NCBI GenBank assembly: GCA_018651745.1
Contig: JABIDL010000026.1
Location: 1 to 64,000, forward strand
Length of the DNA stretch: 64,000 nt
Direction: 5' to 3'
Source: Candidatus Neomarinimicrobiota bacterium
Lineage (GTDB): Bacteria > Fidelibacterota > Marinisomatia > Marinisomatales > TCS55
In this document: one piece after another, positions 1,721-9,166 of the stretch
How the letters are laid out: each line of letters begins with the position of its first letter
Position numbering within the stretch: position 1 is the stretch's first letter
Made by a program: the position numbers and the translations under genes
Notes under the pieces: generated by a model
The model's database searches: none
Seen by the model: only the letters and a program-made list of their open reading frames with translations
What the model was told of the DNA's origin: nothing

Positions 1721-1828
1721 GGATGAGTCCTTTATATTCAGTGAAAATTTGATCGATAGTTTACGGGATGGAAACGACAGGCGCAATTTGGAATTGCAGA
1801 CCAGTTCAGGTTGTCTTTACCTTGGAAT

Positions 1829-4180
1829 ATGGAATTATTCCGCAAGTCGCCTCTAGTGTTTATTGCCATTGCTGTTTGCAATGGAATTGTGGTTGGAAAG
1901 ATTTTCAATGTGCCATTAACAATGTTAAGCGTCCTGGCAATTCTGGCGTTTCTTCTTTTTGTTTATTCTCATTATACAACGAGTGAGATCGCATTCCTGA
2001 TTACTATTTTTATTCTATCTCTCGGCTATTTCGAATTAGAAGAAAACCGATTAACCCGATTAAGAGAAACGCTTGATTCTCTTCATGACCAACCCGTGCA
2101 TTACAGTGGAAGCGTATTAAATATTCAACAAACCAAAAAAGGACAAAAGATCCATTTAAAAAATATCAATCTCGCATCTGAAATTAGTTTTGATAATTCC
2201 TTTACATATCATGTATATCTACGTGGAATCCATTCCATTCTAATTGGCGATACACTTTCCGGGCAGGGTGAATGGATGGCATTATCCGGACGAAGAAATC
2301 CCGGGGATTTTGATTTTCGTTCTTTTTATCATCGTCAAAATATTTTCGGGAAAATTTTTCAAGATAAATATGCAATTCCTTCAATAGATACACTTTCTGA
2401 AATTTCAATTATGAGGACAATGGCTCAGATTCGGAAAGATTTGAATCAAACGTTTCATCATTATGTTGGAAAACCTTACGCAGGATTGTTATCCGCACTT
2501 ATCACAGGGGAACGGAATGATGTTGATCCTGAAATAAAAGACCATTTTATTGCAACAGGAGTGGTTCATGTATTGGCGGTATCCGGGCTTCATGTTGGTT
2601 ATGTACTGCTCGTTCTCATTTTTATAACAAAAATACTTCGAATTCCTTGGGGTTGGGATCGTGCAGTCATTTGGATCGGATTGCTTCTTTTTTGTCTTTT
2701 AACAGGAGGAAAGGCAAGTGTAATTCGCGCTTGTTTAATGGCAGGTCTTTATATGTTGGCGCCGGTAATAAATCGTCCTGCTAATATATGGAATATTATT
2801 GCTGCGGCTGCACTTTGTTTACTTTTATGGGATCCTTTATATCTGTTTAATATGGGGTTTCAGTTGAGCTTTACTGCCGTCATTTCTATCGTATTTTTCT
2901 ATAATTATTTGAATCGTGTTTTGCCGGAATTTCTACAAGTCCCTAAAATGAAAAATCCAGTTGCAAAATTTTTCTGGGGATTATTCCTAGTGTCATTTTC
3001 TGCGCAAATTGGAACCCTTCCATTTACGGCAATTTATTTCGGAAAAATTCCGATAATTGCTCTTATTGCCAATATAATAATTGTTCCGCTTATTGGAGTT
3101 TTAGTTGGCATTGGATTTGTAATTTCACTCTTTAGCTGGATTCCATTCGTTGGCGAAGTATATGGGCAGGCCGCATGGTTTTTTGGGACTATTATTGATA
3201 ATTTAGCAGCGTATTTCGCCGGATTTAAATATGGTATTATTAAAACGGGAAGCATGCCAATTTATTTGGTGTGCGTCTATGTTTGTTCCATTATCGGCAC
3301 TTTTCTTTTCATGGAAAAAGCGTTCAGAAAAAAAGGCATCATTGCACTTCTTATCGGTCTCAATGTCGCTGTATGGACTCCTACTTTTCAACATCCCGCG
3401 ATGGATGTTATTTTTTTGGACGTCGGTCAAGGTGATGCTGCTCTTGTACGGTTTCAAAATGGAAAAACGATGTTAATCGATGCCGGACAGCGAAACCGAT
3501 ATCAAGATTCTGGAACGGAAATGATACTTCCGGTTTTGGATTATTTTAATATCAATAAATTGGATTGGATTGTGATGAGCCATCCGCATAGCGACCACAT
3601 CGGAGGATTGATTTCTGTTTTGGAATCCATACAGGTCGATTCAATTTGGGATACGCACATGGATTACCATTCTTGGACATATAAACGTATTTTAGAATTG
3701 GCAGAAGAAAATAATACAGGAATTAGGAAATTAATCAGTGGAGAAATAAATCGGATTGATGGTAATACTGCCGTCGAAGTGTTTGCTCCGGACACAGTTT
3801 TTATAAAACACGAATCCAATGTGAATAATGCGAGCATTGTTATGAAATTGATACATGGGGAAAATTCTTTTCTATTTACCGGAGATTTGGAACATGAAGG
3901 CGATGCGTTTTTACTTTCTTTCGGTTCAGTGTTGAAAACCGATGTACTGAAAGTGGGACATCATGGCTCCATTACCAGCACGACTCAGGCATTTTTGAAC
4001 TTAGCGAAACCTACCTGGGCCGTTGTGTCGGTTGGCAATAAAAATAAATTTAACCATCCATCTCCGATTGTTATGGAAAGGCTATCAGAGAAGGTATCAA
4101 ATATCAGACGAACGGATTTGCACCAAGCAGTGTGGTTCAAATCTGATGGTGAAAAAATTTGGGAGGTGGATTGGAGGTAG
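1829..4180 (+). CDS. comEC: ComEC/Rec2 family DNA-uptake channel
   Basis: Inner-membrane protein that passes single-stranded DNA into the cytoplasm during natural transformation. Three parts are seen in order: an N-terminal DUF4131 region (to about residue 180), a polytopic Competence domain holding HVLAVSGLHVGYV, and a C-terminal metallo-beta-lactamase-like domain with DVGQGDAALV, SHPHSDHIGG and VGHHGS. All three expected regions are present and uninterrupted. ATG 1829 (MELFRK) is preferred over TTG 1811, though neither has a good ribosome site. No other competence gene is in the window, so active transformation is only inferred. Confidence 0.93.
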   Translation: MELFRKSPLVFIAIAVCNGIVVGKIFNVPLTMLSVLAILAFLLFVYSHYTTSEIAFLITIFILSLGYFELEENRLTRLRETLDSLHDQPVHYSGSVLNIQQTKKGQKIHLKNINLASEISFDNSFTYHVYLRGIHSILIGDTLSGQGEWMALSGRRNPGDFDFRSFYHRQNIFGKIFQDKYAIPSIDTLSEISIMRTMAQIRKDLNQTFHHYVGKPYAGLLSALITGERNDVDPEIKDHFIATGVVHVLAVSGLHVGYVLLVLIFITKILRIPWGWDRAVIWIGLLLFCLLTGGKASVIRACLMAGLYMLAPVINRPANIWNIIAAAALCLLLWDPLYLFNMGFQLSFTAVISIVFFYNYLNRVLPEFLQVPKMKNPVAKFFWGLFLVSFSAQIGTLPFTAIYFGKIPIIALIANIIIVPLIGVLVGIGFVISLFSWIPFVGEVYGQAAWFFGTIIDNLAAYFAGFKYGIIKTGSMPIYLVCVYVCSIIGTFLFMEKAFRKKGIIALLIGLNVAVWTPTFQHPAMDVIFLDVGQGDAALVRFQNGKTMLIDAGQRNRYQDSGTEMILPVLDYFNINKLDWIVMSHPHSDHIGGLISVLESIQVDSIWDTHMDYHSWTYKRILELAEENNTGIRKLISGEINRIDGNTAVEVFAPDTVFIKHESNVNNASIVMKLIHGENSFLFTGDLEHEGDAFLLSFGSVLKTDVLKVGHHGSITSTTQAFLNLAKPTWAVVSVGNKNKFNHPSPIVMERLSEKVSNIRRTDLHQAVWFKSDGEKIWEVDWR

Positions 4181-4445: not shown

Positions 4446-5390
4446 ATGATGGCAATTGATCCAAAATATATCGCCGGGGTGGATGAAGCCGGCCGTGGAC
4501 CTTTAGCGGGACCGGTAGTAGCAAGTGCTGTTATTCTGAAAAAAGATCATGGAATCGAAGGGCTTGGCGATTCTAAAAAACTAACCCCAAAACGCAGACA
4601 AGCAGCATTTGAACTTATTATGGAAAAAGCGGAAAATGTCGGCGTCGGATTGGTGAGTTCAAAACAAATAGATCGAACCAATATTCTTGCTGCCACGCAT
4701 AAAGCAATGAAAATGGCATTGGGTAAATTACATCCTACTCCCCAATTGGCATTGATTGATGGAAGACCGCTCAGGACAAATGTGATCCAGAATAAAGGAA
4801 TTGTTGGCGGGGATGGAAAAATTGAATCCATTATGGCTGCATCCATTGTGGCGAAAGTAACCAGAGATAAAATCATGGAACAGTACGATATTGTTTTTCC
4901 GGATTATGGTTTTGCAAAACATAAGGGATACGGCACAAAACTGCACATGGAAGCACTTATATTACATAAAGCGTGTCCCATTCATCGGAAATCTTTTGCG
5001 CCGGTAAAAGCAAATATGCCAACCATGAATTGGCTGAAAAATGAAAAGAAAATTGGTCGTCTTGGCGAACAGCTAACTGCCCTCAGATTAATGAAGGATG
5101 GGTTTCGCATTCTTGAAATGAACCGCACCTGCGGCAATCATGGCGAGTTGGATATCATTGCTAGAAAAAATGATTTACTGGTTATTGTGGAAGTGAAATC
5201 TGCAACAAAGGAACAAATGGGGGATTTGTCACTTAAAGTTGATCATCAGAAAAAACAAAAATTACAAAATGCTATTCAGCATTATTTGCAAAAGGATGAA
5301 CCAAAATTCAAAGATATCCGACTGGATGTAAGCACCGTATTATTTATGAAAGGAAAACCAAAAATTGAGTTTTTCCGTGGCGTGGATTGA
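4446..5390 (+). CDS. rnhB: RNase HII fused to YraN/UPF0102 nuclease-like domain
   Basis: Residues 1 to about 200 are ribonuclease HII, which nicks RNA or single ribonucleotides in DNA. Visible motifs are GVDEAGRGPLAGPV (catalytic Asp-Glu), IDGRP, ASIVAKVTRD and HKGYGTKLH. After a short linker, residues about 205-314 are a complete YraN domain of the PD-(D/E)xK fold: GRLGEQLTALRLMKDG, HGELDIIARK and VIVEVKSA. The two are usually separate neighbouring genes; here one frame spans both without a stop. ATG 4449 is better spaced from AAGG than 4446. The frame runs into the signal peptidase gene. Confidence 0.93.
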   Translation: MMAIDPKYIAGVDEAGRGPLAGPVVASAVILKKDHGIEGLGDSKKLTPKRRQAAFELIMEKAENVGVGLVSSKQIDRTNILAATHKAMKMALGKLHPTPQLALIDGRPLRTNVIQNKGIVGGDGKIESIMAASIVAKVTRDKIMEQYDIVFPDYGFAKHKGYGTKLHMEALILHKACPIHRKSFAPVKANMPTMNWLKNEKKIGRLGEQLTALRLMKDGFRILEMNRTCGNHGELDIIARKNDLLVIVEVKSATKEQMGDLSLKVDHQKKQKLQNAIQHYLQKDEPKFKDIRLDVSTVLFMKGKPKIEFFRGVD

Positions 5391-5419
5391 TTAAGTTTCC
5401 CGTCAATTTTAAATCCATT

Positions 5420-6397
5420 ATGACAAAAAATAAATTAATCCGGGAAATTCGATCCATTGCGATTCTAGTGACGATTGTATTGCTTTTAAAGGTGACAATC
5501 ATGGAATCATACATTGTGCCGACGGGAAGCATGGAACGCACAATTATGACGGGCGATTTTTTAATCGGTAACCGTTTTGTATATGGAATGCGCACACCTG
5601 ATTGGTTGGGTATTATTTGGACAGATATTGGGTTTGATATTCCATATGTACGATTTCCAGCATTTAAAAAACCCGGACAGGGCGATGTGATTATATTTAA
5701 ATATCCCAGAGATACCCACCAAAAATATGTCAAACGATTGATAGCAGGCCCGGGTGATTCTCTTGAAATAAAATCTAAAAAAGTATATGTGAATGGGGAT
5801 GAATTTATTCTTCCAAAGCATGGGCGATTCCAAATGCCTTTAATTTCTAAATCTTATAGCCAACCAGATATTTTCCTTGCAAACGGATCGAACAAAGATC
5901 ATTATCCTACAATCCGGATACCGGCAAAAGGGGACCGCATCCCAATAAACAATGAAACAAATTGGCGATATTTGCTTCCACTTATGATGATGGAAGGTCA
6001 TACGGCGGAACTAAATAAAGGAACCGTGAATTACCAATTTGATTTAACAGATCCCTACGATCTTAGACGAAGGGGGAAGAAAGAAAACGTACTTCGTCAG
6101 TATCGTGAATTTGATGAAAATGGAACCAAATTAAATCCATGGTCCGGAGTGTTGACACATTCAGATTTTCAATATCTTGTCATTGATGGCAAACCCATTC
6201 AGGAATTGAGTGAATATGTTTTAACGGAAGATTATTATTGGGCAATGGGTGATAATCGGGACGATAGTTTGGATAGCAGGTATTGGGGATTTGTCCCGCA
6301 TAAATATATTCTTGGGGAAGCATTGTTTGTTTTCATGTCTCTCGATTTGGATAGTTGGATACCAAGATTGAACCGGATTGGAACGGTGATTCGCTAA
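5420..6397 (+). CDS. lepB: Signal peptidase I
   Basis: Membrane-bound serine/lysine protease that removes signal peptides. One N-terminal membrane anchor precedes the catalytic Ser in PTGSMERT (about residue 37). The general base Lys lies in YVKRLIAGPGDSLEIK (about 105), and box E MGDNRDDSLDSRYWGF is near the C-terminus. About 325 aa, with roughly 100 extra residues between the Lys box and box E, a spacing that varies among family members. The frame is open from TTG 5387, which overlaps the upstream stop; ATG 5420 gives a normal N-terminus, but no clear ribosome site separates the two. Confidence 0.92.
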   Translation: MTKNKLIREIRSIAILVTIVLLLKVTIMESYIVPTGSMERTIMTGDFLIGNRFVYGMRTPDWLGIIWTDIGFDIPYVRFPAFKKPGQGDVIIFKYPRDTHQKYVKRLIAGPGDSLEIKSKKVYVNGDEFILPKHGRFQMPLISKSYSQPDIFLANGSNKDHYPTIRIPAKGDRIPINNETNWRYLLPLMMMEGHTAELNKGTVNYQFDLTDPYDLRRRGKKENVLRQYREFDENGTKLNPWSGVLTHSDFQYLVIDGKPIQELSEYVLTEDYYWAMGDNRDDSLDSRYWGFVPHKYILGEALFVFMSLDLDSWIPRLNRIGTVIR

Positions 6398-8776: not shown

Positions 8777-9166
8777 ATGAAATTCACATCCAAACATATT
8801 CAAATGATTAATGAAGGAATCGATTCTTTTAATGGTTTCCAATATGATATTGCTCATACGATTTGGGAGCAAGTTTGGAAGGAGATGCGAACGAATGACA
8901 ATCGCTATTGTTTAAAAGGATTAATCCAAATTTCCGGATCTTATTTGAAATGTTATTTTAAGAAAGGCGACGCATCTGAGTACTTGCTTAGAAGGGCAAA
9001 AATAAATATATACAAATATATTTCTGAGCTGAATCAGTTTATTGAAAGTGATTCATTAATTACAGATATTGATTTATTGCTGAAGAATAAGATAACAATT
9101 AAAGTATTCCATAAAGTACAAATAAAAAAGCGGGGCAGACTTCACAATGACCTCGGAACAAGGTGA
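8777..9166 (+). CDS. DUF309 family protein
   Basis: A helical protein resembling DUF309: the order FNGFQYDIAHTIWEQVW, then LKGLIQISGSYLKCYFKKG, then ASEYLLRRA matches the family pattern of a helix pair with a conserved His and Trp. Biochemical function is unknown. The first ATG directly abuts the preceding terminator's T-run, so ATG 8804 (MINEGIDSF) is an alternative. The last 12 codons overlap a large inverted repeat (9132-9177) that probably terminates the opposing tRNA-Leu, so the C-terminal RGRLHNDLGTR may be encoded by terminator sequence. Confidence 0.75.
   Translation: MKFTSKHIQMINEGIDSFNGFQYDIAHTIWEQVWKEMRTNDNRYCLKGLIQISGSYLKCYFKKGDASEYLLRRAKINIYKYISELNQFIESDSLITDIDLLLKNKITIKVFHKVQIKKRGRLHNDLGTR

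Follow-up and report, generated by a model that had tools for sequence, protein, structure and literature searches.

The window analysed here, a 64,000-nucleotide stretch of DNA from a Candidatus Neomarinimicrobiota bacterium (contig JABIDL010000026.1), contains a gene in which ribonuclease HII and the YraN (UPF0102) protein are joined in a single chain (Table 1). What do these two proteins do in one polypeptide, and do they act on the same substrate? A reading made from the sequence alone had concluded from the fusion that they do, with RNA-DNA junctions as an example; we find that the YraN half instead follows the genes of natural transformation.

Table 1. The fusion gene, its parts and its two neighbours in the window
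Feature	Positions	Strand	Details
ComEC/Rec2 DNA-uptake channel gene	1811..4180	+	TIGR00361 290.3 bits (cut-off 190.05); PF03772
RNase HII-YraN fusion gene	4446..5390	+	ATG start, 314 aa, stop included in coordinates
RNase HII domain	4473..5003	+	residues 10-186; D13 E14 D105 D123, GRG 16-18, Y162
Linker	5004..5054	+	residues 187-203
YraN/UPF0102 domain	5064..5336	+	residues 207-297; E208, E234, D236, E249, K251, K269
Signal peptidase I gene (lepB)	5417..6397	+	TIGR02227 126.9 bits (cut-off 47); PF10502; directly downstream of fusion

The gene is a single open frame with zero internal stops, and its halves score 121.3 bits with PF01351 (RNase_HII) and 64.8 bits with PF02021 (UPF0102), against Pfam cut-offs of 25.8 and 23.6; the NCBIfam profiles agree with both calls. 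The earlier description, two complete domains joined in frame, is thereby borne out. Chance domain matches can be ruled out, since both domains lie far above the curated cut-offs. RNase HII is defined by its DEDD catalytic residues, a GRG motif and a conserved tyrosine, and we take the RNase HII residues listed in Table 1 to be these catalytic and active-site positions. Among 74 diverse intact fusions that we aligned, D13, E14, GRG 16-18, D105 and D123 did not vary, and neither did the six listed YraN residues, so that the PD-(D/E)xK residues, singled out for checking in the sequence-only reading, are present and invariant. Judged by their residues, both active sites of the fusion are complete. 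The predicted model of the protein forms one compact unit (mean pLDDT 94.8, pTM 0.92), with a short helix at residues 194-199 within the linker, and the high pTM suggests a fixed mutual position of the two domains. In a viral structure library the model had 7 matches at E <= 0.001, all of low coverage and none informative.

Searching 245 Neomarinimicrobiota genomes with PF02021 retrieved matches in 141, of which 139 were above the cut-off. At all 133 loci that were read from these 139 genomes the two domains lie in one frame (G012, G229, G231, G238 and G241 were left out, and G154 ends at a contig end). The same join is found in two GenBank relatives, both Candidatus Neomarinimicrobiota MAGs, which are 81% (L032) and 75% (L033) identical to the window protein over residues 2-314. 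An assembly artefact near position 5040, the danger pointed to when the fusion was first noted, is therefore excluded by these two relatives and by 133 of the 139 phylum genomes. Unfused YraN was sought among five short-frame matches within the phylum, and none was found in those read: in G111 and G220 contig ends cut the loci, yet both domains are present, and in G027 a frame change splits RNase HII with YraN still joined, while G154 stops at its contig end and G012 was outside the loci read. The RNase HII-YraN fusion is thus the normal form in Neomarinimicrobiota.

Outside the phylum, YraN was found in 141 of the 147 genomes sampled. We read 12 long-frame loci, taken from among the matches listed (weaker matches fell outside the frame-length survey); four were true RNase HII-YraN fusions (L195, L199, L200 and L201) and the other eight long YraN frames were not. 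The four fusions come from four families and differ in linker length. Since true fusions also exist outside the phylum, the architecture arose or spread more than once, and the proposed search for other fused proteins yields a phylum-wide rule that is rare elsewhere. This spread, both across the phylum and in four outside families, together with the compact predicted model, favours the idea that both halves act together on one substrate, for example RNA-DNA junctions, while excising ribonucleotides or removing primers.

The two halves, however, have separate fates. RNase HII is present in 200 of the 245 phylum genomes, and in these the YraN half is often missing or unrecognisable. Usable RNase HII frames were obtained from 184 genomes (family f9 contributed loci from 9 of its 19 RNase HII genomes, 8 of them in the final set), and 181 were aligned after the short pieces in G015, G041 and G199 were dropped. 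One genome, G163, was set aside before this count owing to a stop inside RNase HII; in its loci L091 and L094 a TAA breaks the frame. We called a YraN half intact when D236, E249 and K251 were present; that intact proteins all keep these three thus follows from the definition, of which E208, E234 and K269 are not part. Among the 181 proteins with complete RNase HII, 124 had an intact YraN half, 33 had lost D236, E249 or K251 (degenerate) and 24 were truncated. The losses range from domains that look normal apart from one altered active-site residue (G064, G065 and G152), through tails of 100-120 aa with the motif gone (family f16) and shorter ones of some 30 aa (genera g6 and g7), to complete absence of the tail (f9 and part of g2). 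By comparison, none of the checked RNase HII residues is substituted, whatever the YraN class: D13, E14, G16, R17, G18, D105, D123 and Y162 are all present in 176 of the 181 proteins, and in the remaining five some are gapped or read as X. That 57 of 181 proteins keep every checked RNase HII residue with a YraN half that is cut off or, by its residues, inactive speaks against a shared RNA-DNA junction substrate.

The fusion lets one follow, within a single gene, what happens to YraN once its function is lost, the RNase HII half serving as an internal control. The median within-genus ratio of YraN to RNase HII amino-acid distance was 1.12 across 179 intact pairs versus 2.53 across 22 lost pairs (pairs share genomes, and the p-value is therefore not independent). 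In lost pairs where it could be computed, dN/dS of the YraN half rose to about 0.25-0.9, mostly below 0.65, compared with 0.04-0.15 for RNase HII. For the degenerate tail of G166 a fold is still predicted (pLDDT 90.0, pTM 0.89), although 10 of the 20 aligned rows behind this prediction were intact relatives, which favours a fold. With dN/dS mostly below 1 and a tail predicted to fold, some constraint may remain on the decayed tails, perhaps only to spare RNase HII. Three f16 loci (L069, L073 and L067) carry a YraN tail without catalytic residues that keeps an open frame and a predicted fold, a possible pseudonuclease.

Loss of the YraN half without visible effect on RNase HII would also be expected if neighbouring genes of an operon had simply been joined in frame by neutral change, with no consequence beyond shared expression. 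The two genes were said to be usually neighbours, and this holds in part: RNase HII adjoins YraN in four of the eight short-frame loci read outside the phylum. In addition, PMC10140301 describes UPF0102 genes adjoining RNase HII, for all five DV-Hjc genes. Against a neutral join stands the constancy of the junction across the phylum, where the stretch 188-203 measures 14-17 aa in each of the 124 proteins whose YraN half is intact. Linker conservation fits neutrality and function equally, and a neutral join is therefore compatible with a role of YraN in transformation; we give even odds to a neutral join and to a functional fusion.

To what, then, does the loss of YraN correspond? We searched the same 245 phylum genomes for ComM, ComEC and DprA, with RecN as a control, counting ComM as present at E of about 1e-50 or better (a fragment in G068, at 5e-24, was counted and one in G183, at 5e-12, was not), ComEC and DprA at E <= 1e-3, and RecN at E <= 1e-30. 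Most of these genomes are incomplete MAGs. Across the 181 genomes, ComM was present in 114 and absent from 10 of those with an intact YraN half, and present in 0 and absent from 57 of those that had lost it; the corresponding counts were 118/6 and 0/57 for ComEC, and 110/14 and 1/56 for DprA. At least one of the three genes was found in 122 of 124 intact genomes compared with 1 of 57 in the lost class, and in this sole exception (G152) the dprA gene holds an internal TAA. The two intact exceptions with none of the three genes, G076 and G107, are 72% and 77% complete. YraN thus decays repeatedly wherever comEC, comM and dprA are gone, and its state tracks transformation genes and nothing known of ribonucleotide repair. 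Taken with the separate fates of the two halves, this makes a joint action on RNA-DNA junctions very improbable. Inside the phylum comM, comEC and dprA disappear jointly, and the pattern there does not set ComM apart from the other two. In three fusion-bearing genomes (G077, G144 and G150; fusions in L125, L181 and L144, respectively) comM, comEC or dprA is split or stop-bearing with YraN intact, which reflects either ongoing loss of competence or MAG errors.

YraN might alternatively be a general recombination or Holliday-junction nuclease, its loss reflecting an overall loss of recombination or streamlining. The YraN half indeed matches the fold of archaeal Hjc (1gef; Z up to 9.7 over 92 residues, weaker than the YraN match given below), and the smallest genomes, those of f9, have lost YraN, the competence genes and strong RecN matches together. 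The fusion, however, scores 16.7 bits with the archaeal Hjc profile PF01870, below its cut-off of 21.1, and the RecN control behaves differently from the competence genes, being present in 110 and absent from 14 intact genomes and present in 30 and absent from 27 lost ones, with a phi of 0.40 versus 0.83-0.93 for ComM, ComEC and DprA. On the RNase HII tree at least 15 changes of the YraN state are needed. Nine independent pairs were compared on supported branches: possession of at least one of the three competence genes changed in the same direction as YraN in 8.0 pairs on average and in the opposite direction in 0.0 (median p 0.008), whereas for RecN the values were 0.5 and 1.0, so that RecN loss does not follow YraN in such pairs. 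Genomes of equal size in f10, f13 and f15 also differ in YraN along with the competence genes. These results leave a general recombination nuclease an unlikely explanation. When the comparison is confined to the window's class and to genome sizes of 1.7-2.5 Mb, competence genes were present in 38 and absent from 0 of the intact genomes and present in 1 and absent from 20 of the lost ones; since the association persists in this size-matched comparison, small genome size is not its cause. Genome reduction as the whole cause is ruled out by the same comparison and the RecN control. Three genomes of the window's genus (G000, G081 and G082) have no strong RecN match and complete competence genes.

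In the window comEC lies upstream of the fusion, with 265 bases between them. Among loci with room to tell, comEC immediately precedes the fusion gene in 49 of 77 with an intact YraN half, in none of the 29 degenerate ones and in none of the 24 truncated ones. The lepB gene is directly downstream in 61 of 117 intact, 5 of 5 degenerate and 22 of 22 truncated cases. Further along the window, positions 8777-9166 encode a small DUF309 protein (PF03745, 34.5 bits against a cut-off of 27) between coiled-coil-like ORFs and a gpsA-like ORF, the latter two labels having been assigned by eye only.

Of the 147 outside genomes, 72 were also searched for ComM, among them all six that lack YraN. A strong ComM match (E of 2e-82 or better) was found in 65 of 66 YraN-positive genomes, with G255 as the exception, and in none of the six YraN-negative ones, save a fragment in G360. 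Judged by coordinates, yraN and comM stand side by side in five genomes (G290, G312, G321, G344 and G352). The control genomes of Bacillus subtilis and Lactococcus lactis had ComEC and DprA matches and no YraN match; these bacteria use RadA instead of ComM.

A role for YraN in transformation has been proposed before: PMC12455585 cites a 2024 preprint by Hardy et al. as describing YraN as a helicase-associated nuclease of natural transformation, and the description of YraN as uncharacterised, on which the sequence-only reading relied, is on that account out of date. YraN is treated as a previously predicted PD-(D/E)xK endonuclease in PMC1189080. According to PMC10140301, nuclease activity was not detected with one recombinant UPF0102 protein, which counts against the nuclease reading. 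Our literature search found nothing on an RNase HII-YraN fusion or on competence in this phylum; preprints and subscription journals were thinly covered, which makes this a weak absence.

We therefore favour, with a probability of roughly 80%, a single chain with two largely separate jobs, in which the YraN half would serve as a transformation nuclease. The RNase HII half, with its complete set of family residues, would carry out the housekeeping removal of ribonucleotides from DNA. The YraN half would be a PD-(D/E)xK nuclease maintained by selection for natural transformation, and would most likely cut recombination intermediates while the branch-migration helicase ComM extends incoming single-stranded DNA into the chromosome; the roles of ComM and of YraN as a nuclease are here taken from the cited literature. 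Probably two adjacent genes were first joined in frame in an ancestor of the phylum, prior to its diversification; the fusion may add co-expression or tethering, but RNase HII does not need it. One could also imagine that in competent members the RNase HII half was itself recruited to transformation, the fused protein being a two-nuclease tool that travels with ComM. Its YraN half would then trim recombination intermediates, its RNase HII half would remove ribonucleotides or RNA-DNA hybrids standing in the way of extension of the incoming strand, and after loss of competence YraN would become a folded pseudonuclease that is later cut off; we regard this extension as unlikely.

The reading of YraN as a transformation nuclease in a chain with two separate jobs bears on a protein that is widespread and yet listed by Pfam as an uncharacterised family. 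With at least 15 changes of state in a single phylum, the evidence points to natural transformation; this lends independent support to a role that only a preprint has put forward to date, and makes that role directly testable. The same pattern implies that a transformation apparatus is retained in many uncultured Neomarinimicrobiota and has been lost in others.

Compared with known systems, the first half of the fusion resembles E. coli RNase HII (7uwe; 188 residues at 1.2 A, 50% identity, Z 30.3), and keeps the catalytic and GRG residues of RNase HII, the rnhB product, known also from T. maritima (3o3f); unlike these enzymes, the window protein adds a C-terminal YraN nuclease domain. The second half resembles the YraN/UPF0102 structure 3fov (RPA0323; Z 15.4, 1.8 A over 97 residues). 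Outside the phylum, YraN occurs mostly as frames of 113-196 aa among the matches listed, whereas the window copy is the C-terminal domain of an RNase HII. Unlike the claim of Hardy et al. 2024, as cited in PMC12455585, our evidence is evolutionary and comes from an uncultured phylum and a fused protein; like the YraN described there, the window-type YraN goes with ComM and the transformation genes.
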